Below are positions 20,727-39,345 of a DNA stretch of 64,000 nucleotides, one piece after another. The stretch comes from an uncultured Ruminococcus sp. Its GTDB lineage: Bacteria; Bacillota; Clostridia; Oscillospirales; Ruminococcaceae. The position numbers and the translations under genes are program-made. Location of the stretch: NCBI GenBank assembly GCA_902780505.1, contig CACZFN010000018.1:57021-121020 (forward strand), given 5' to 3'. Each line of letters begins with the position of its first letter. Position 1 is the stretch's first letter. Under the pieces are notes generated by a model. The model searched no databases. It was given only the letters and a program-made list of their open reading frames with translations, and was not told the DNA's origin.

Positions 20727-21815
20727 TTACCCTGCTGTGATAACTGAAACGAGATAGAACGGGACTTCGTCCGAGGGTTGGTCTGTTACCCTGACCTCAA
20801 CTGTATGGCGTTCGCTTTTGTCACTTTCAAACACCGGTGTCAGACAGATAAGGTCACCCCAATCCTCCTCAAAGTTAGCATCAAGTGTCACGGCGTTTGC
20901 TTCGTTGCCGTCGATTATTGCAAGGGCTGTAGGGGCTGGGCGTTTTATAGTCCTTCGCCACTGGATATTGATAACACAAGCTTTTACCTCCGTTTTGAAT
21001 ACAGCGCCGTTTTCACTGCTGTACCAGCCGTTTTTAAAAATATCGGTAATGTCAGCCTGCTTGTCGGTGTCTTTTATAAAGCCTGATATTTCGGGGGTTA
21101 TATTACGGTTATCAAGGCGTTTTGCAGTTAAATACCTTGCCTTTGTAAGCGGGGCTTCGGGGAAGCTTAAAGGTTCATTAGCGGCTTCGTCTTTCATTTC
21201 ATCAATGGCTTTATTTACAAGAGTTGCTATTATTTCCATACCCTTGTCCTTCGGGTGCAGTCCGTCGTCTGTAAGGTCATTCCTTGAAAGCTCTCCGTTT
21301 TGCAGACGCGGGTAGATGTAATCGCGCACGCTTACAGCAGGCACGCCGTAATATCCCGCGGCTTCATTATGTATAGCCTGTGCATTTTCGCCGCTGTCAT
21401 AGAAAAGGTTGTTTATAACAAGGCAGGCGGGGTGTTTTTCATATTGTAAGATCCTTCTAAGTACACATTCATATGTTTCCCTGAAAAGTTCATTTCTGCC
21501 GTCATCATTTACCGAAAACTCCACAAAGACCATATCGGGCGAATACTTTAGTATATCATCATCAAGCCTTGCCGCCCCAAACTGTGATGTAGTTGCACCA
21601 ATACCGCCGTTTATAAGTGTAAGGGCGGCTTTCGGGAACATCTCACACAAATGTGCAAAGATGCGGTTCACATACCTGTTTTCTGTCGTTGATGCGTTAC
21701 AGCCCATTGTAATAGAGCCGCCTAAAAACGCAACTGTAAGTGCCTCTCCCCTTTCCGCCTTTTCAAAAAAAGCTTTGAAGCGGCTGTTGTTTCCTTTTAC
21801 TGCGAATGTGTTCAT
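20727..21815 (-). CDS. SGNH/GDSL hydrolase
   Basis: The product has 362 residues and no signal peptide. The SGNH blocks are: Ser in FLGGSITMG (about residue 32), Gly in NGGIGATTS, Asn in EFSVNDDG, and the Asp-x-x-His pair in DDGLHPKDKG (about 196). A C-terminal beta-rich domain (about 225-362) follows. Related proteins are acyl/carbohydrate esterases of gut Firmicutes. Its start overlaps the stop of the RecQ-UvrD fusion by 4 bases, so it is downstream in that operon, although no functional link is evident. Confidence 0.88.
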   Translation of the reverse strand: MNTFAVKGNNSRFKAFFEKAERGEALTVAFLGGSITMGCNASTTENRYVNRIFAHLCEMFPKAALTLINGGIGATTSQFGAARLDDDILKYSPDMVFVEFSVNDDGRNELFRETYECVLRRILQYEKHPACLVINNLFYDSGENAQAIHNEAAGYYGVPAVSVRDYIYPRLQNGELSRNDLTDDGLHPKDKGMEIIATLVNKAIDEMKDEAANEPLSFPEAPLTKARYLTAKRLDNRNITPEISGFIKDTDKQADITDIFKNGWYSSENGAVFKTEVKACVINIQWRRTIKRPAPTALAIIDGNEANAVTLDANFEEDWGDLICLTPVFESDKSERHTVEVRVTDQPSDEVPFYLVSVITAG

Positions 21816-24800
21816 GATTTTTTACTCCCTTTCTTTAGTATTATATCTGGCAGCATTACTGCGTATTCCGTGTCCTCGTCCTTTGGCTTCCATGACAGCA
21901 CAAACCTCACCTGCGCCGATTCAAAGCAGTAGCCTTTATCGGCAAATGCTGCAAAGCGCTCACTGAAAGCCTTTGAAAACCTTGCGGCGGGTATCACTTT
22001 TTTGTCCCTGCCTTCGGCATAAAGGGTATCGCCCTTTAGTGTGAGCGTCTGCCCGCTTAAAAGGCTAAGGATAATTCGCTTTTTATCCTTGAAGAAACCG
22101 AGCGCTACGTCCCTGTGGGTAAGGCTTAACATTATCTGCTCGGGTTCGTGGTAGCGGGTGTTGTCAAAGCTTATATCCGCATACCGCGAAAAGCCCTTAA
22201 AGACATCATTGTTGCAGTGTATTATAAGCTCACTCTTTGCCCTTGTTGCGGCAACGTAGAGCTTTCTTCTCTGCTCATCGGTGTCAAGGGTAAAGTTATC
22301 AAGCATAAGTATAACACTTTCAAACTCCATACCCTTTGTCTTGTGAACAGTAGAGACCGACACAACACCCTGCTGCGATTTATAGAAATCTTCAAGCGAC
22401 GATTCGCGCAAAAACATTTTAAAGTCTGAAAAATACCTTTCCTGATATGTCTTTTCATAAAGCGAGATAATATCGAGCACTGTCGGCAGTGCAGCGCTTT
22501 CCTTATAGCGAACAGCAAGCTTTTCGCGGCATTGAACCCACACTTTTTCAGGTATCTTCGGGCTGTCCTTGCAGCCCTGTTCAATACATTTGAGAAAAAA
22601 CCTCAGCTCTGCGATATTAATAACCTCAAACCCGCTGTTTGAACGTATCAGCTTCGCAGGTATGCCCCTTGATGAAAGCTCCGCAAAAACAGCAAGTGCT
22701 TCCTCGTTGGTAGCTGCTGCTATGCACAGGCTTTTTCTGTCATGCATGGCGGCTTCATCAACTGTGGGGATGACCATATTCTTACAGCTGTGACGGATTA
22801 TCCTTACACTGCCCTCCTCACTGCTGTATGAGGTTATCGGTTCGGTTTTCAGTCTGTTTGTAATACCTGCTGCTATCCTGTCAGAAAACGAAACAAGTGC
22901 CCTCAGGCTCCTGAAATTGACGCTGAGCTGATAAAGCGAAGCTTTATACTTCGGTATAAGCATCTGAAAGTATTTGGCGTCCGAACCCCTGAAGCTGTAG
23001 ATGTTCTGGTCATCATCACCTACTGCTATAACACGAATATCCTCGTTTATCCTGATAAGGCTTTCTATAAGTGCAAATTCATTTTCGTCCATATCCTGCG
23101 CTTCATCTATGACAAGCACGCTCTTGGTTATACGTGAACGGTCTACACCGCCGTTTTCTATCATCATAGCGGCGGTTTTCACAACGTCACTGCTTTCGCT
23201 TATACTCCCTATCTTTCCGAGCAGGTCAAAGCAGAAGGAATGGAACGTCTTTATCTCGACAAACGCCGCCGCATTGCCGATAAGCGCATAAAGCCTTTCC
23301 CTGAATTCATTTGATGCGCTTCGTGAAAAAGTCACCATAAGCAGCTGTTCGTGCTTTATATCCTCAAGCAGCAAAAGTGATGCAAGCTTATGCACAAGTG
23401 TTTTTGTCTTGCCGCTTCCGGGACCTGCACACACAACTATATACTGTGATGACTTATCACGTATTATATTTTTCTGCTGCTCTGATAACGTGCCGAAAAG
23501 CTCATTATACTTTTGTGAAGTTATATTCATATCAAGGCTGTGCGCCTTATCGCCGTCAAAGTATTTTGATATGAACTTCCTGTAATCAAGCGAAAAGTAA
23601 TCAGCTGTAAATTCAAGTGCCCTCTGCTTGTTTTCAACCATAAGACGGGCAAACTCGCCTACTATATGTATCTGCCTTATACGCTGTTTATAGAATTCAT
23701 CAAGGCTTTTATAGTCATCAGTCTTGAAGCGTATCTTATTGTCAAGCTCAGTCCTTTTTATGCAAAGTGCATTATAAAGCACCAAAAAGCCGCCCTCAAG
23801 CCTTAAACAGTCAGTCTTTAAAAGATATAAAAGCGCTTCCTTTACATCATCGGAACCAACACTTTTGCCAAAACGTCTGTTATATACGCTTATAAGCTCG
23901 CCCTCAGAGAAGAACACGCCCGTTTCCTGTGCTGCCTTATCACTTTTTGCAACGATACGTGAAAACAGAAAGCTTATAATAAAAAGGCAGAGTGAATTCC
24001 TTTCATCAAGTCTGTTTAAAAGCTTGATCCTCTCAACAGTCAGCGCAAGCGTGACACGTTCACTGTAGGCATCGCTTTCATATATGACCTCAGAAGCACC
24101 CGACATATATGACAGCACACGCTTTATTATATTTACATTTATCCCCTTGATACCATTCTCTGCCGCCGACTGGTTTATCTCCTTTATATGAAACTTCCTC
24201 GGTGTGCTGTCAAGCAGGGAGATAATATGCTTTTCAAGTGCGGCATGGCGCTTGAAGGACTGGACCGACTTGTTTTCCGTATCAGTACGCTTAATATAGG
24301 CACACATATCCTTGCTGTCGCTTAGTATGCCCTCCTCCCTCATAAGCGAGAGCGCACGTATGGTATCTGCCTTTTCTATACCGAGTATATCGGAAAGCAC
24401 ATCGACTCTTGTATCATCATCCGCATTATGCGCCTTTGCCTGATACTTTGCCGACACAAGGCGGGAAACTATCCTTTTCGCCTGCTCCCTGCCTTTTTCA
24501 TCAAAGCGGGGTGAGCTGTCTATTATCTTTGCCGCCTCGGCAAAGCTTAAAACATTCAGGGCATCTGCATAGACACGGGGGCAGTTTTTTCCGCGTTTTA
24601 TATAGCCTGCATTTTCGAGTGCGAGCAGGGCTGTCCTTACACGGGTATCTGTTTCGTTGGCATCACCTGACCAGCCGGCCTGTTTTGCGAGCTCACGTGC
24701 AGAACAGTAAAACTCCTCTCCCCCGCGTGAAAAACTCTTTACCGCCTTCCACACCTGCTGTATCTCACTGATACTCAGCTTTGACTGATTTAAAAGAATG

Positions 24801-26608
24801 AAGTGCTTATCAAGGTCGCTTTCATTAAAAAGAACATAACATTCGGCGTTTATATCCTCGTCCCTGCCTGCACGCCCCGCTTCCTGCACATAGTTTTCAA
24901 GTGAATCAGATATATCAAAATGCACCACAAGCCCGACATCGGGCTTATCGACACCCATTCCGAAAGCAGATGTCGCAACTATCACATCAGCCTTTCCGCT
25001 TATAAAAGCCTCCTGGTTTTCCTGCTTGCGTGAACTTTCCATCTTTCCATTGAACGGCAGTGCCGAAAAGCCGTCGGAATACAGCCTGTAGGCAAGCTGT
25101 TCGGTGCGCTTTGTACGTGAAACGTAAACTATCGTCGGGCATTTCCTGCTTTCTATAAGCGTTCTCAGGGTGTTATATTTATCGTCGTCAGTTTCTTTAT
25201 ATATGACCTCATACTTTAGATTTGTACGCTGTTGCGTAGTCGTAAACAGTTCAAGATCAATGCCGAGCTTATCATTAAAATACGCCCTTATATCGCTTAT
25301 TACCTTTTGCTTTGCGGTAGCGGTGAAGCATGATACGGCGATCTTGCGCCCGCTGTGCTTCTTTTCTTCAAGTTCCCTTATATAATCACCGATATAAAGA
25401 TAATCCACCCTGAAATCCTGTCCCCATGCAGAAAAACAGTGGGCTTCATCTATAACAAAGCGTGTGACGTTCCGCTTTAAAAGCACACGCTCTGTCGTTG
25501 CAGACCTCAGTGATTCGGGCGAGATATAAAGGATCGATGCCTTCCCGCTTTCAAGCTTTTCAATGGCATCCTGACGTTCAACAGGGCTTAACAGTCCGTT
25601 TAGTGTAACGGCAGAGGTTATCCCCTTGCGTTCAAGGTTATATACCTGGTCCTTCATAAGTGACTGAAGCGGCGATATCACCACAGTAAGGGCACGTTCA
25701 CACCTTTCCGCTATAAGTGCGGGCAGCTGGAATGTAAGGCTTTTCCCGCCGCCTGTAGGGAACACCGCAAGAAGGCTTTTGCCTGCCACCGCAGCGTTTA
25801 CGGCGTTTTCCTGCAAAGGCTCACCGCCGTAAGAGCGAAAACTTTCAAAGCCGAAAATATTTTTAAGATACCGCTTTGCATCAAGCTTGCCTATGCAGTA
25901 TTCACATTTGCCGCAGGAGTTGTTTCTAAGCATATAAAAGGCATTTTCTATATACGGAAAATTTTTATGTACCCACGGCGGTATCAGCGAAAGCGGATCA
26001 AAATGCAGGATAAAGCTGAGCACATATGCAAGTTCTGCGGGGTGTTCACTGATAAGGGCTTCTATCGGGGCGCTTATACAAAGCTTACCGCCGAAGTATT
26101 CCTTTATAAGGCGGGGCAGGTCATTTGCACGCCTTGAAAAGCCGGTATAATCAAAGAAATCTTTAAAATATTTATTACTGCCAAGAAGCGAGAAAAGTAT
26201 CATTTTAAAGACACTGTCAAGCTCACCAAAAGATGAAACCTCATCATAGAAAAGCTCTCGCGCCTTGATACAGTCGTTATAGGGATCATTAGGCTGTTCG
26301 GTGAGGAGTTTTTCGTCCTTTACAAGCTTATGATACGGCCTTTTCGGGAAAAGCAGCGGGGATAGAAAAAGGGTATCTATCACCTTTTTGGCAGAAAGAT
26401 CTTCAGGCAGATATTTAAGGTCATGGTCAATTATATTATGCCCGCAGAGGTACTGCGCCTTGTCGGTATATGACAAAAACTCCGCTGTATTCTTGGTATG
26501 CACGCCGCTTCCGTCGGAAAGCAGTACGCCAAGGTCAACGGCTTTACCTGTGCTTAAAGAAACCTCGGTATCAACAAACGCCACAAGCTTATTTTCCACT
26601 TTTCTCAC
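21812..26608 (-). CDS. Exonuclease-RecQ-UvrD fusion helicase
   Basis: The product has 1598 residues. The N-terminus (about 10-125) looks like a DEDD 3'-5' exonuclease: DTE at the first block, GHNIIDHD at the second, and Asp residues in the third (PYNDCIKA). A RecQ helicase core spans about 250-600, with Walker A PTGGGKS, DEAH in VIDEAHCFSAWG and the motif VI region QEAGRAGRDED. Winged-helix and linker parts follow to about 1060. The last 500 residues are an SF1 UvrD/Rep helicase: GPGSGKT, IDEAQDMDE, GDDDQNIYSFRG, HKTKGMEFE and VAATRAKSEL. It starts with GTG (26608) or a second GTG at 26599. Two helicases of different superfamilies plus a nuclease in one chain suggest repair or invader-DNA processing. 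Confidence 0.92.
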   Translation of the reverse strand: MRKVENKLVAFVDTEVSLSTGKAVDLGVLLSDGSGVHTKNTAEFLSYTDKAQYLCGHNIIDHDLKYLPEDLSAKKVIDTLFLSPLLFPKRPYHKLVKDEKLLTEQPNDPYNDCIKARELFYDEVSSFGELDSVFKMILFSLLGSNKYFKDFFDYTGFSRRANDLPRLIKEYFGGKLCISAPIEALISEHPAELAYVLSFILHFDPLSLIPPWVHKNFPYIENAFYMLRNNSCGKCEYCIGKLDAKRYLKNIFGFESFRSYGGEPLQENAVNAAVAGKSLLAVFPTGGGKSLTFQLPALIAERCERALTVVISPLQSLMKDQVYNLERKGITSAVTLNGLLSPVERQDAIEKLESGKASILYISPESLRSATTERVLLKRNVTRFVIDEAHCFSAWGQDFRVDYLYIGDYIRELEEKKHSGRKIAVSCFTATAKQKVISDIRAYFNDKLGIDLELFTTTQQRTNLKYEVIYKETDDDKYNTLRTLIESRKCPTIVYVSRTKRTEQLAYRLYSDGFSALPFNGKMESSRKQENQEAFISGKADVIVATSAFGMGVDKPDVGLVVHFDISDSLENYVQEAGRAGRDEDINAECYVLFNESDLDKHFILLNQSKLSISEIQQVWKAVKSFSRGGEEFYCSARELAKQAGWSGDANETDTRVRTALLALENAGYIKRGKNCPRVYADALNVLSFAEAAKIIDSSPRFDEKGREQAKRIVSRLVSAKYQAKAHNADDDTRVDVLSDILGIEKADTIRALSLMREEGILSDSKDMCAYIKRTDTENKSVQSFKRHAALEKHIISLLDSTPRKFHIKEINQSAAENGIKGINVNIIKRVLSYMSGASEVIYESDAYSERVTLALTVERIKLLNRLDERNSLCLFIISFLFSRIVAKSDKAAQETGVFFSEGELISVYNRRFGKSVGSDDVKEALLYLLKTDCLRLEGGFLVLYNALCIKRTELDNKIRFKTDDYKSLDEFYKQRIRQIHIVGEFARLMVENKQRALEFTADYFSLDYRKFISKYFDGDKAHSLDMNITSQKYNELFGTLSEQQKNIIRDKSSQYIVVCAGPGSGKTKTLVHKLASLLLLEDIKHEQLLMVTFSRSASNEFRERLYALIGNAAAFVEIKTFHSFCFDLLGKIGSISESSDVVKTAAMMIENGGVDRSRITKSVLVIDEAQDMDENEFALIESLIRINEDIRVIAVGDDDQNIYSFRGSDAKYFQMLIPKYKASLYQLSVNFRSLRALVSFSDRIAAGITNRLKTEPITSYSSEEGSVRIIRHSCKNMVIPTVDEAAMHDRKSLCIAAATNEEALAVFAELSSRGIPAKLIRSNSGFEVINIAELRFFLKCIEQGCKDSPKIPEKVWVQCREKLAVRYKESAALPTVLDIISLYEKTYQERYFSDFKMFLRESSLEDFYKSQQGVVSVSTVHKTKGMEFESVILMLDNFTLDTDEQRRKLYVAATRAKSELIIHCNNDVFKGFSRYADISFDNTRYHEPEQIMLSLTHRDVALGFFKDKKRIILSLLSGQTLTLKGDTLYAEGRDKKVIPAARFSKAFSERFAAFADKGYCFESAQVRFVLSWKPKDEDTEYAVMLPDIILKKGSKKS

Positions 26609-36672: not shown

Positions 36673-36706
36673 TGCCGGTGAATATTCGCCGGTTTTTTCT
36701 TTTTTT
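36673..36706 (+). terminator. Terminator after the kinase-like gene
   Basis: The stem CCGGTGAA/TTCGCCGG is followed by TTTTTTCTTTTTTT. It separates the kinase-like gene from the peptide array. Confidence 0.85.
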
Positions 36707-36769: not shown

Positions 36770-37138
36770 ATGAACGAGAAATTTGAAAAGTACATCGAGG
36801 GCTTGTCCCCCGAGATGCAGGAAAAGGCACGTCAGTGCAAGACTAAGGAAGAACTTCACGCATTCATTGCGGAAAATGATCTTGAACTGCCCGATGAAGC
36901 GCTTGAACTTGTAGCTGGCGGCTGCGGGAAATCGACAGAACGTTGCTATCATCAAAATGTGACGGAGCTGGAAAGAATACCATTTCCAAAGCGTAGCGAA
37001 AGTATATATAAGATACGGTGTAACCTCTGCGGTGAAATGTTTTATCACAAGGTAAGTAATAATCGAGATTATAGTATATCAGAAGAAGAATATAATAAAC
37101 GCAAGCTCAAGAGCGATGCACCGAACACATGGTGGTGA
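36770..37138 (+). CDS. Double-glycine leader peptide, array member 1
   Basis: The product has 122 residues. Residues 1-51 form a Nif11-like leader: an amphipathic helix with LSPEMQEKA, a conserved Cys in QCKTKEEL, an acidic FIAENDLELPDEALE block and the LVAGG cleavage motif (about residues 47-51). The presumed core (52-122) is polar and has CYH and CNLC pairs that could bind one metal ion or be modified, and it ends in WW. The ATG at 36770 has an AAAGGAGG site 7 bases upstream; an upstream in-frame ATG inside the kinase gene is not used. No modifying enzyme, protease or ABC exporter lies within the window near it. Confidence 0.85.
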   Translation: MNEKFEKYIEGLSPEMQEKARQCKTKEELHAFIAENDLELPDEALELVAGGCGKSTERCYHQNVTELERIPFPKRSESIYKIRCNLCGEMFYHKVSNNRDYSISEEEYNKRKLKSDAPNTWW

Positions 37139-37208
37139 GTGAGTTATTAGCATATGGTCAGTAGCAGTCTCATTTTTTGAGAAAAATACTTTCAAGGAGG
37201 AAATAGCC

Positions 37209-37523
37209 ATGAATGAAAAATACTTAAAAGACCTATCCCCCGAGCTGCAGGAAAAGGCAATGGAGTGCAAAACGCCCGAGGAAATAAATGAATTTATAGA
37301 CGACAATGACTTAGAGCTTGATGAAAGTGCGCTTGAAATGGTCTCGGGCGGCGGTGCACTGGAAGAACTCTACAACTGGTTATATGCCAACGGACATATT
37401 ACGGAAATGAAAAAGAGGATACGGAAACAGGCAGTCCTTTACGGACTGGAGGCTTTAAACGATGCACCACCGCAGATAAAATGCTATCGGAGTCTTTTGA
37501 ACGCCATTTATGATATCATCTGA
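37209..37523 (+). CDS. Double-glycine leader peptide, array member 2
   Basis: The product has 104 residues. The leader (1-49) is a shortened form with LSPELQEKA, ECKTPEEI, a very acidic block and MVSGGG. The core (50-104) differs entirely from that of member 1: a helical, basic segment (MKKRIRKQ) and only one Cys. It would be a cationic helical peptide after cleavage, like a class II bacteriocin, but that is inference. AAGGAGG lies 9 bases before the ATG. The Ala-Leu-Glu-Glu after the glycines also differs from the Cys-first cores. Confidence 0.83.
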   Translation: MNEKYLKDLSPELQEKAMECKTPEEINEFIDDNDLELDESALEMVSGGGALEELYNWLYANGHITEMKKRIRKQAVLYGLEALNDAPPQIKCYRSLLNAIYDII

Positions 37524-37602
37524 TAACGACAGTGTAAGGTGCATTCTGGAGGCAACAAATAGTCTTTCAACTCTAATAAATACAATCAAGGAGGAAAATA
37601 TC

Positions 37603-37950
37603 ATGAACGAAAAATTTGAAAAGTACATTAAGGATTTATCACCTGAATTACAGGAAAAGGCAAGGGAGTGCAAGACACCCGAGGAACTGAACGCTTTTAT
37701 AGCCGAAAATGACATTGAGATACCAGAAGAAGCACTTGATATGGTTTCGGGCGGGTGCAATACCGTCAAGGAAGCAAAGCCGATACTTAAATGCAACTAC
37801 TGCAATTCAGTGCTTGAAGAACTGCCGAAGGATCAGAGCCTGATAGACAAGATAAAGGAGAAGTTGCAGACAGTCAAAAGCGCAAAGGAAAACCTTATGT
37901 ATTGCAGGGCCTGCAACAGAGTTATATCCCCTGATGAATGGCATTATTGA
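37603..37950 (+). CDS. Double-glycine leader peptide, array member 3
   Basis: The product has 115 residues. The leader (1-51) ends in MVSGG and is nearly identical in DNA to that of member 4. The core (52-115) starts with Cys and has two CxxC knuckles (CNYC and CRAC) about 35 residues apart, a zinc-ribbon pattern, joined by a Lys/Glu-rich helix. The ATG at 37603 is preceded by AAGGAGG. Either a small zinc-ribbon protein or a cysteine-modified peptide would fit. Confidence 0.85.
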   Translation: MNEKFEKYIKDLSPELQEKARECKTPEELNAFIAENDIEIPEEALDMVSGGCNTVKEAKPILKCNYCNSVLEELPKDQSLIDKIKEKLQTVKSAKENLMYCRACNRVISPDEWHY

Positions 37951-37984
37951 TCTACAAAGCTAACATTTTAAGGAGGAAAACACC

Positions 37985-38410
37985 ATGAATGAAAATATTG
38001 AAAAGTACATTAAGGATTTATCACCCGAATTACAGGAAAAGGCAAGGGAGTGCAAGACACCCGAGGAACTTAATGATTTTATTGCGGAAAATGACATAGA
38101 GCTGCCCGAGGACGCACTCGAGCTTGTAGCGGGCGGCTGCGGCACCTGCAAGCATGACAGTAATAAAAGCCTTGAAAACTGGGTGTACATCGGTTCAACA
38201 ATGCCGGTGATACACGGTAAGGAGATTGCTAATCTCGGAAAAAGCTGCTGCAGTAAATGCGGTGGAAATATCACATACAAAGCAATAACAGGCATAGTGC
38301 GTTATACAGATAATTATGGGAGAATGGTGGGACAATGTGACACTATTATAATATCCGAGGCGGAATTCAATACCTATAAATCGAAGTTCCGTTTACAGTG
38401 GAAGGCGTAA
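37985..38410 (+). CDS. Double-glycine leader peptide, array member 4
   Basis: The product has 141 residues. The leader (1-51) ends in LVAGG, and the core (52-141) opens with CGTCKH and has CCSKCGG further on, a treble-clef or zinc-ribbon pattern. The C-terminal half is beta-rich and ends in KFRLQWKA. The last 100 bases around its stop and the next ribosome site are repeated exactly 369 bases downstream, so the following broken copy arose by recent tandem duplication of this gene. AAGGAGG precedes the ATG. Confidence 0.86.
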   Translation: MNENIEKYIKDLSPELQEKARECKTPEELNDFIAENDIELPEDALELVAGGCGTCKHDSNKSLENWVYIGSTMPVIHGKEIANLGKSCCSKCGGNITYKAITGIVRYTDNYGRMVGQCDTIIISEAEFNTYKSKFRLQWKA

Positions 38411-38451
38411 TGATTATCTCTACGGCTTAAAAGGAGGAAAACACCATGAAA
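38352..38451 (+). repeat. 100-base direct repeat, first copy
   Basis: Identical, by eye, to 38721-38820. It covers the 3' end of a core, the spacer, the ribosome site and the first bases of the next gene. The 369-base offset marks a recent tandem duplication within the peptide array. Confidence 0.85.
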
Positions 38452-38779
38452 CGCTTTTATAGCCGAGAATGACATAGAGCTGCCCGAGGACGCGCTCGAA
38501 CTTGTTGCGGGCGGCTGCGGCACCTGCAAGCATAACAGTGATAAAAAGCTTGAAAACTGGGTGTCCATCGGTTCAACCGATCCGGTGATACGTGGAAAGA
38601 ACGTTGGCAGTATCGGTAAAAACTGCTGTAGCAAGTGCGGAGGGAATATCACATATACTGCTCATACCGGAAACATAATCGAATCCGGCAGCTATTATGT
38701 TAGAGTTGAAACCTTTACGATATCCGAGGCGGAATTCAATACCTATAAATCGAAGTTCCGTTTACAGTGGAAGGCGTAA
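38446..38779 (+). pseudogene. Array member 5, leader deleted and out of frame
   Basis: The ribosome site and ATG (38446) are intact, but the ATG frame stops after 8 codons at 38472. The last part of the leader (from AFIAENDIEL) and a full core like that of member 4 (CGTCKH, CCSKCGG, same KFRLQWKA end) are open in the +1 frame to 38779. About 85 bases of leader were lost, apparently between short TGAA repeats. The core keeps its frame, so loss is recent, or expression relies on frameshifting or another start. Confidence 0.8.
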
Positions 38780-38820
38780 TGATTATCTCTACGGCTTAAA
38801 AGGAGGAAAACACCATGAAA
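38721..38820 (+). repeat. 100-base direct repeat, second copy
   Basis: Second copy of the repeat at 38352-38451. It carries the ribosome site of array member 6. Confidence 0.85.
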
Positions 38821-39194
38821 GGGCTTGCAAGACAAAGGAAGAACTTAATGCTTTTATAGCGGAAAATGACATAGAGCTGCCTGATGACGCGCTCGAACTT
38901 GTAGCGGGCGGCTGCGGGACGTCACACTGCGAGCATAATTTCATAGAAACCGAAAGAATTGATATGATGCCGGCGATCGGCAACAACGGGCTGATCGGCC
39001 ATGCTATACATTATAACGGGATACAGGTACAAAACATCAAGACAAATCAATGCAGCAAATGCTCAGAATTACATTATTATGTCATGACGTTGCCTCAGGT
39101 AGACAAATATGTCAGTCAAAACGGCATGGTCATAAGCTATAAAGAGATAAGCGCCGCTGAGTATAACTCCCTCAAGGCGCAGAAAAACTGGTGA
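38815..39194 (+). pseudogene. Array member 6, leader truncated and out of frame
   Basis: The ATG at 38815 stops after 14 codons. The leader remnant (from ACKTKEEL) and the core are open in a different frame (38817-39194), ending in KAQKNW. The core starts CGTSHCEH and has CSKC later, distinct from those of members 4 and 5. A separate internal leader deletion from that of member 5 must be assumed, because the breakpoints differ. An upstream in-frame ATG at 38697 lies inside the previous core and lacks a ribosome site. Confidence 0.78.
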
Positions 39195-39301: not shown

Positions 39302-39345
39302 AAATATCGCCGTTTGTATTAAGTTTTTGCAAACGGCGATATTTT
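39302..39345 (+). terminator. Terminator of the peptide array
   Basis: A perfect 15-bp stem (AAATATCGCCGTTTG and its complement) ends in TTTTG. Confidence 0.8.

Follow-up and report, generated by a model that had tools for sequence, protein, structure and literature searches.

Nif11-derived peptides with NHLP export (TIGR03798 with TIGR03794, TIGR03796 and TIGR03797) are described, in the accessible part of PMC2887384, as having a double-glycine leader, hypervariable cores and many paralogues per genome, and intragenic recombination was inferred there from motifs common to NHLP and Nif11-derived leaders (Haft 2010). Prochlorosins also have Nif11-type leaders, and many precursors are served by one promiscuous enzyme; the accessible text of PMC10783134 proposes gene transfer and recombination as sources of their diversity, recombination being suspected from nearby recombinase genes. 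In Lachnospiraceae C6A11, LahA1-9 combine Nif11 leaders with nine divergent cores, and positions -4, -7 and -12 of the leader matter for the C39 protease LahT (PMC6363468, in its accessible part). In contact-dependent inhibition (CDI)/Rhs proteins the part used for delivery is constant and the C-terminal modules that follow it can be exchanged; according to the portion of PMC3150448 available, their orphan modules generally have no initiation signals and retain a conserved junction motif. As far as these sources go, Nif11-class arrays, NHLP exporters, natural combinatorial biosynthesis and the idea of recombination are already known (PMC2887384, PMC10783134). Here we describe a tandem array of six double-glycine leader units at positions 36770-39194 of a stretch of 64,000 nucleotides (the window) from an uncultured Ruminococcus sp. 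(assembly GCA_902780505.1, contig CACZFN010000018.1, positions 57,021 to 121,020). Comparison with related loci indicates that its cores are exchangeable cassettes, moved between species independently of the leaders, with the switch near Gly-Gly.

The array shares with the Nif11/NHLP system the leader type, the hypervariable cores, the many paralogues and the exporter families. It differs from what PMC2887384 describes in its accessible part by a leader of about 51 residues whose window copies fall under the family cut-offs, by long zinc-ribbon-like cores, by apparent between-species recombination at the leader-core junction, and by its probable partner, which is a radical SAM/SPASM protein; 'radical SAM' occurs 0 times as a term in that part of the paper. 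Prochlorosins differ in their LanM lanthionine chemistry, and no leader-core switch is described in the accessible text of PMC10783134. LahA1-9 and LahT belong to a lanthipeptide operon, whereas the enzyme here is a radical SAM protein. With CDI/Rhs systems the array has in common that the delivery part is constant and the C-terminal modules are exchangeable, and their startless orphans resemble members 5 and 6 of the array; the proteins themselves are unrelated and the array has no identified immunity partner (compared with the available part of PMC3150448). We found no sequence-level description of between-species leader-core exchange in the literature searched, most subscription journals being outside its coverage, and in the same literature no description of zinc-ribbon-like cores with Nif11 leaders or with a radical SAM enzyme.

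Histories of leaders and cores

The maturase, the DUF7005 protein and both ATP-binding cassette (ABC) genes associated with these leaders differ between the five genomes compared by a proportion of synonymous differences (pS) of 0.55-0.80. In 14 gene pairs leader pS is 0.38-0.80, while core pS is 0.00-0.14 in 9 of them. Core identity exceeds leader identity in 25 of 28 cross-genome core pairs, with medians of 92% versus 82%; these pairs were picked at a core DNA identity of at least 80% from 160 precursors, a choice that favours the core over the leader. That choice has no bearing on the contrast in pS to the pathway genes or on the three-way mosaic given below. Among 154 genes examined, with partners in the same genome allowed, 31 have a core partner at 85% identity or more, and for 27 of these the best leader partner is a different gene.

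The clearest mosaic (L049:10991-11410; loci, genomes and contigs carry our own L, G and C numbers) lies in G001, a genome of 3.6 Mb in 2 contigs that is 99% complete. Its leader is identical at 158/159 positions to that of L046:7083-7493 (G006), the core of which is unrelated (94/226), and its core is identical at 256/264 positions to that of L043:1874-2293 (G005), the leader of which matches at 100/153. The switch point lies at Gly-Gly, in the stretch GGC GGC TGC. Breakpoints were tested in 16 pairs. On the left side the best one falls at most 33 nt from the first core codon in 12 of them, some of the intervals being wide. On the right side it is at most 16 nt from the stop codon in members 4, 5 and 6 of the window; most other pairs break within the spacer or close to where the next gene starts. 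The comparisons show that leaders and cores have different histories.

A test for homogenisation of leaders within genomes gave no support for it, median leader pS being 0.66 within genomes (1507 pairs) and 0.68 between them (3053 pairs). Leader transfer between genomes is rare, with pS below 0.2 in 3/3053 between-genome pairs. In a second organism group, L071:75-335 and L075:4313-4573 have cores that are 100% identical in DNA and leaders that are 85% identical. At L049:11371-11728 the leader is broken by a frameshift where the similarity to the G005 array ends, apparently another faulty exchange. A search of viral contigs with the core alignment gave 133 pattern matches and no relative, and plasmid and phage records searched with member 4 gave no match, so that no carrier of the exchange was seen in these collections.

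The array and its leaders

The six paralogous units are direct repeats in tandem on the + strand, and a leader segment of 102 nt occurs in six copies with 69-100% identity to the reference copy and a spacing of 378-430 nt. A chance origin of the array is excluded by these repeats and by the E-values of down to 1e-28 that the typed consensus leader reaches in the genome. A sequence-only reading of this DNA had announced six leader peptides with nearly constant leaders and diverging cores. The six repeat units were recovered, with members 1-4 alone intact; the constant motifs SPE(L/M)QEKA, CKT, FIAEND (FIDDND in member 2) and the terminal GG were all confirmed; and the cores do differ, but they are not of six kinds, since members 4, 5 and 6 form one family. 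The Nif11-like layout of constant leader and variable core that it proposed is supported, since the same leader adjoins a maturase in this genome and some distant relatives pass a Nif11 model, as described below. It did not mention the movement of cores between species that is independent of the leaders.

Members 1-4 are complete precursors of 122, 104, 115 and 141 residues with start and leader intact, and they retain a ribosome-binding site (RBS), an open frame and the leader motifs. Member 1 (36770..37138) has a leader of 51 codons at 36770-36922 and a core at 36923-37135 with the pattern CxH...CxxC, and its core partner L044:1396-1761 is 83% identical in amino acids. Member 2 (37209..37523; leader 37209-37352, 48 codons; core 37353-37520) has a basic, helical-looking core with two Cys-free partners, L043:1515-1835 (88% amino acid identity) and L044:2562-2882 (82%). 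Member 3 (37603..37950; leader 37603-37755, core 37756-37947) carries a separate core with two CxxC pairs. Member 4 (37985..38410; leader 37985-38137, core 38138-38407), the structure of which was modelled, differs in its core from L042:5396-5818 by 0 synonymous and 11 nonsynonymous differences over 90 codons.

Members 5 (38446..38779) and 6 (38815..39194) have kept the RBS and the ATG (38446 and 38815) and lost the front of the leader, and the ATG is out of frame with the leader interior. Their residual leaders lie at 38450-38515 and 38820-38912, and their cores at 38516-38776 and 38913-39191. No ATG, GTG or TTG precedes GG in the core frame of member 5; in that of member 6 the starts before GG are one ATG and one TTG, both within the coding region of member 5. 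The core partners of both have a full leader (L045:5626-6039 for member 5, 94% amino acid identity; L043:3692-4120 for member 6, 81% by BLAST). Each of the two is preceded by a copy of a 114-nt segment of repeat family D4 on the + strand that contains the core end, the spacer, the RBS and ATGAA (38338..38451 and 38707..38820, 96% identical), the second of which runs into member 6.

The leader is about 50 residues long, constant and ends in Gly-Gly. The window members fail the curated cut-offs of TIGR03798 and PF07862. When 10 precursors from distant maturase loci were scored against TIGR03798, 3 passed, 5 scored 26.8-30.7 and 2 scored 25.2 and 20.7; none of 5 usable typed precursors from such loci was above the PF07862 cut-off, and many of the leaders there end like GELSDDELDNVSGG. 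On this comparison we regard the window leader as Nif11-class, divergent and shortened. Hydrophobic residues stand at -4, -7 and -12 in every one of the 98 leaders of the genus that end in GG, a regularity that is partly by construction because the set was gathered with the leader profile; they thus carry the double-glycine pattern of C39 recognition. The ratio of nonsynonymous to synonymous substitution rates (dN/dS) of leaders is 0.03-0.21 where computable, which indicates that they are under purifying selection.

Leaders are present in 6 of 7 genomes of the genus, this one included, in 1 to 56 copies. Of the 12 copies in the genome studied, C18, the contig of the window, has 6, C30 has 5 and C24 has 1. 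On C30, L013:12806-13297 is a single frame of 163 residues with the order leader-core-leader-core, the second leader abutting the first core. The precursor on C24 (L015:10357-10731) is solitary and has a Cys-free core, and open reading frames (ORFs) near it resemble what we take to be transposases and a Fic-type protein. The 56 leader matches belong to G005 (58% complete), mostly in two long arrays, L042 and L043.

Around the array, a terminator-like hairpin (36674..36693, + strand), a consensus match only, lies between an upstream kinase-like gene and member 1; five such hairpins occur in the region against a mean of 3.2 in shuffles. After member 6, a perfect 15-bp inverted repeat (39302..39344, + strand, pair I3) is a possible operon end. 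The ORF list has no other evident gene between the units and no identified immunity gene, and an Rfam search of the window gave no match. Elsewhere in the window, an ORF of 1598 residues (21812-26608, - strand) presumably encodes a fusion of an exonuclease with RecQ-like and UvrD-like helicases, judging from its motifs.

Maturation and export genes in the genome and its relatives

The window showed no maturation gene, as the sequence-only reading had stated; the genome, in turn, holds both a maturase and an exporter, as expected from its suggestion that the peptides would depend on a trans-acting system. On C30, four leaders precede a radical SAM/SPASM protein of 465 residues, after which comes a DUF7005 protein with HExxH (PF04055 75 bits, PF13186 32 bits, DUF7005 178 bits), and a fifth leader is found further along on the opposite strand. 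On C29, an ABC protein with a C39 peptidase and another ABC protein form an NHLP-type exporter pair above the NCBIfam cut-offs (TIGR03796 924.7 versus 853.3; TIGR03797 714 versus 709.4). The C39 ABC protein contains the stretch ECGAAS, which we take to be the expected site of the catalytic Cys. Since both sets of genes are on contigs other than that of the array, we infer that they serve it in trans.

Among the 7 genomes of the genus, the leader and the C39 domain are each present in 6 and the maturase in 5, contrary to the possibility raised beforehand that no genome holding the family would contain an exporter. In G001, G002 and G006, precursors, maturase, DUF7005 protein, HlyD-like protein and both ABC proteins are in one locus, with gene labels given by resemblance and most of them then matched by BLAST. 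The HlyD-like protein of G002, the only genome scanned for it, is short and under the TIGR03794 cut-off (34.4 versus 156.2). Genome contigs scanned with the maturase gave 110 loci, of which the best 80 were retained. Almost all of these carry titles of metagenome-assembled genomes (MAGs) from Clostridia and related bacteria, with rumen or gut as a frequent source; four of them (L067, L069, L070, L073) are apparently contigs of G005, G002, G005 and G006. These best 80 loci hold a leader in 56, ABC1 in 49, ABC2 in 46, an HlyD-like protein in 35 and DUF7005 in 10, and absences are weak evidence because many contigs are short. The leader matches were obtained with an iterated profile at E 1e-3, some being weak or partial, and reversed ORFs gave 0 matches. 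For ABC1 the count of 49 holds at E 1e-10; just 42 rows are at least 48% identical, and one of these, L119, is a short stretch that better fits ABC2.

The maturase was modelled from 29 sequences with high confidence (predicted local distance difference test, pLDDT, 90.9; predicted template modelling score, pTM, 0.90). Its residues 1-67 form, in the model, strand-strand-strand-helix-helix-strand, an order that we take to resemble the RRE domains of ribosomally synthesized and post-translationally modified peptide (RiPP) systems. A profile scan of the maturase showed no match to RRE or PqqD, and the RRE-like assignment comes from the order of strands and helices and from SuiB matching over the full length. 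A Foldseek search with the model placed SuiB bound to SuiA first (E 2e-17, 479 alignment columns), followed by other SuiB entries, SkfB and PqqE, with ChlB with leader lower. A profile search of solved structures gave SkfB as the best of 18 matches, which include PqqE and SuiB; another relative, PDB 5wgg, is presumably CteB. SuiB and SkfB are thus the closest solved structures, with 13-15% identity over the fold; their substrate chemistry is not transferable. The reaction cannot be named, because the maturase is far under the cut-offs of the 25 curated families listed of 77 matched (for example StsB, 88.9 versus 625). A maturase with a putative RRE-like domain beside precursors that share a leader, the arrangement of radical SAM RiPP systems, is found on C30 and in relatives.

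Cores, competing explanations and significance

Members 4, 5 and 6 are linked by BLAST, directly or via relatives, into one core family with the order CxH ... CxxC ... ISxxEYN or EFN, and member 1 has the same motif order in alignment A5 without a BLAST link to them. An AlphaFold2 model of member 4 from 15 sequences has an overall pTM of 0.55, with four leader helices in blocks of pLDDT 59-79 (residues 1-60), a junction block of 64 and a beta-rich core in blocks of 82-94 (residues 61-140). This model does not indicate that leader and core form one folded domain, the outcome that would have spoken against the earlier proposal; their relative placement was not assessed. The small zinc-ribbon products suggested before agree with the Cys pattern and with the higher confidence of the member 4 core, but zinc-ribbon profile cut-offs were not reached, either by member 3 (Zn_ribbon_15, 18.5 versus 28.9) or by the C30 precursors. 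Most cores are predicted, from motif, composition and model, to fold as small metal-binding (zinc-ribbon-like) proteins; it is on these that metal binding rests, because no solved structure matches the core model or profile.

We consider it probable that the array represents a satellite bank, holding export precursors of the Nif11 class that are served by a maturase and an exporter in trans and changed by core exchange behind resident leaders. The maturase would bind the leader via its RRE-like N-terminal domain and modify some or all of the precursors, possibly at the Cys usual after Gly-Gly, and the C39 domain would cleave after Gly-Gly and export the core. The repeated leaders would provide homology for recombination that swaps the core and often takes along the spacer and the first part of the following gene, while leader and machinery stay. 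New cores could then work at once, because the resident leader would address the product to the resident maturase and exporter. Members 5 and 6, which consist of a core and a leader end, may be startless cassettes or by-products of exchange, and together with L049:11371-11728 they would fit faulty exchanges or a startless stock.

Several observations weigh against this explanation. In 5 of the 14 gene pairs the cores are well diverged too (pS 0.39-0.66), and 4 of the 16 breakpoint pairs have no switch within 33 nt of the junction, among them member 5, the interval of which spans the junction, and L118/L130, a pair that occupies one position in two close organisms and is about as alike in the leader (96%) as in the core (94%). 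Most genomes compared are MAGs. Against Nif11 models the window leaders score 12-16 bits or give no match (cut-offs 23.8 and 32.3). Maturase and exporter are on other contigs; G004 (81% complete) has one leader and no maturase or C39 match, and G003 (76% complete) has a C39 match with no leader and no maturase. Across 297 genomes of the family, the leader profile (E 1e-6) was found in 5, the maturase (E 1e-60) in 14 and both in 3, with G208 and G282 having a leader match without maturase; leaders diverge fast, which is the context of these sparse matches. Cores with no Cys (5/98) or one (10/98) exist. A Foldseek search with the member 4 model gave no significant match (best E 0.3), and the best match of the core profile to solved structures was a fimbrial protein at E 0.015.

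The strongest competitor is a conventional Nif11-class RiPP, in which the radical SAM enzyme cross-links Cys-rich cores by thioether or other bonds into a sactipeptide- or ranthipeptide-like product and there is no metal-binding mini-protein; we hold this unlikely, yet deserving of serious attention. The solved relatives of the maturase by fold or profile include the RiPP maturases SkfB, SuiB and presumably CteB, and Cys is at +1 in 49 of 98 cores and at +2 to +4 in another 36. The cores are, however, long, with a median of 51 residues and a maximum of 93 (n=99), and 40/99 have at least two CxxC against a shuffle mean of 4.1 (maximum 10 in 200 shuffles). Of the 98 genus precursors 82 have four Cys or more in the core, one has two and none has three. 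The beta-rich fold modelled for the member 4 core also argues against this competitor, as do the different, Cys-poor cores beside the distant maturases L124, L125, L127 and L131. These four loci and L128 have cores with few Cys, often at or near the C-terminus, and the maturase family is therefore not tied to zinc-ribbon-like cores.

It is more doubtful still that the units in the window are the decaying remains of an array that was formerly mobile, and that they make no useful product. Decay is visible in members 5 and 6, two of the six units having no usable start, and the maturation genes found sit on other contigs. In 12 close core pairs, some of which share a gene, synonymous changes are 22/131 versus 31.6 expected (p 0.052), and the sparing of Cys is not significant (2/48 versus 84/709, p 0.15), which indicates that purifying selection is not seen in these pairs and that positive selection is not proven. 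However, four units are still equipped with an open frame, an RBS and the leader motifs, and leader dN/dS is 0.06-0.21 in the computable pairs of members 1-4. Assembly artefacts are a very improbable source of the mosaics: leaders are repeats, which favour chimeras, and most loci are titled metagenome-assembled, but the G001 mosaic joins sequence of two other species' genomes in a nearly complete two-contig genome and the pattern recurs in 25 of the 28 pairs. Equally improbable is a leader acting as an intracellular docking domain for zinc-ribbon adaptors that remain in the cell, with which the sub-threshold likeness of cores to zinc ribbons would agree, and against which stand the GG with hydrophobic -4, -7 and -12 in 98/98 leaders and the repeated linkage to a C39 exporter.

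Beyond the satellite bank itself, we suggest tentatively, and at less than even odds, that the Clostridia of gut and rumen have a common pool of secreted proteins, small, folded and metal-binding, in the form of bare core cassettes, of which the startless units would be a silent stock. If this were true, a species would renew its exported repertoire with enzyme and exporter unchanged. An arms race would be in keeping with the core exchange and with close core pairs that show no purifying selection, and so would variation of a surface or a signal. A large group of Cys-rich small proteins from gut anaerobes is tied here to a defined maturase and exporter, which makes the products testable. The comparisons are direct evidence at sequence level that leader-constant, core-variable arrays can be renewed by between-species exchange of cores at the junction, beyond duplication and point mutation.

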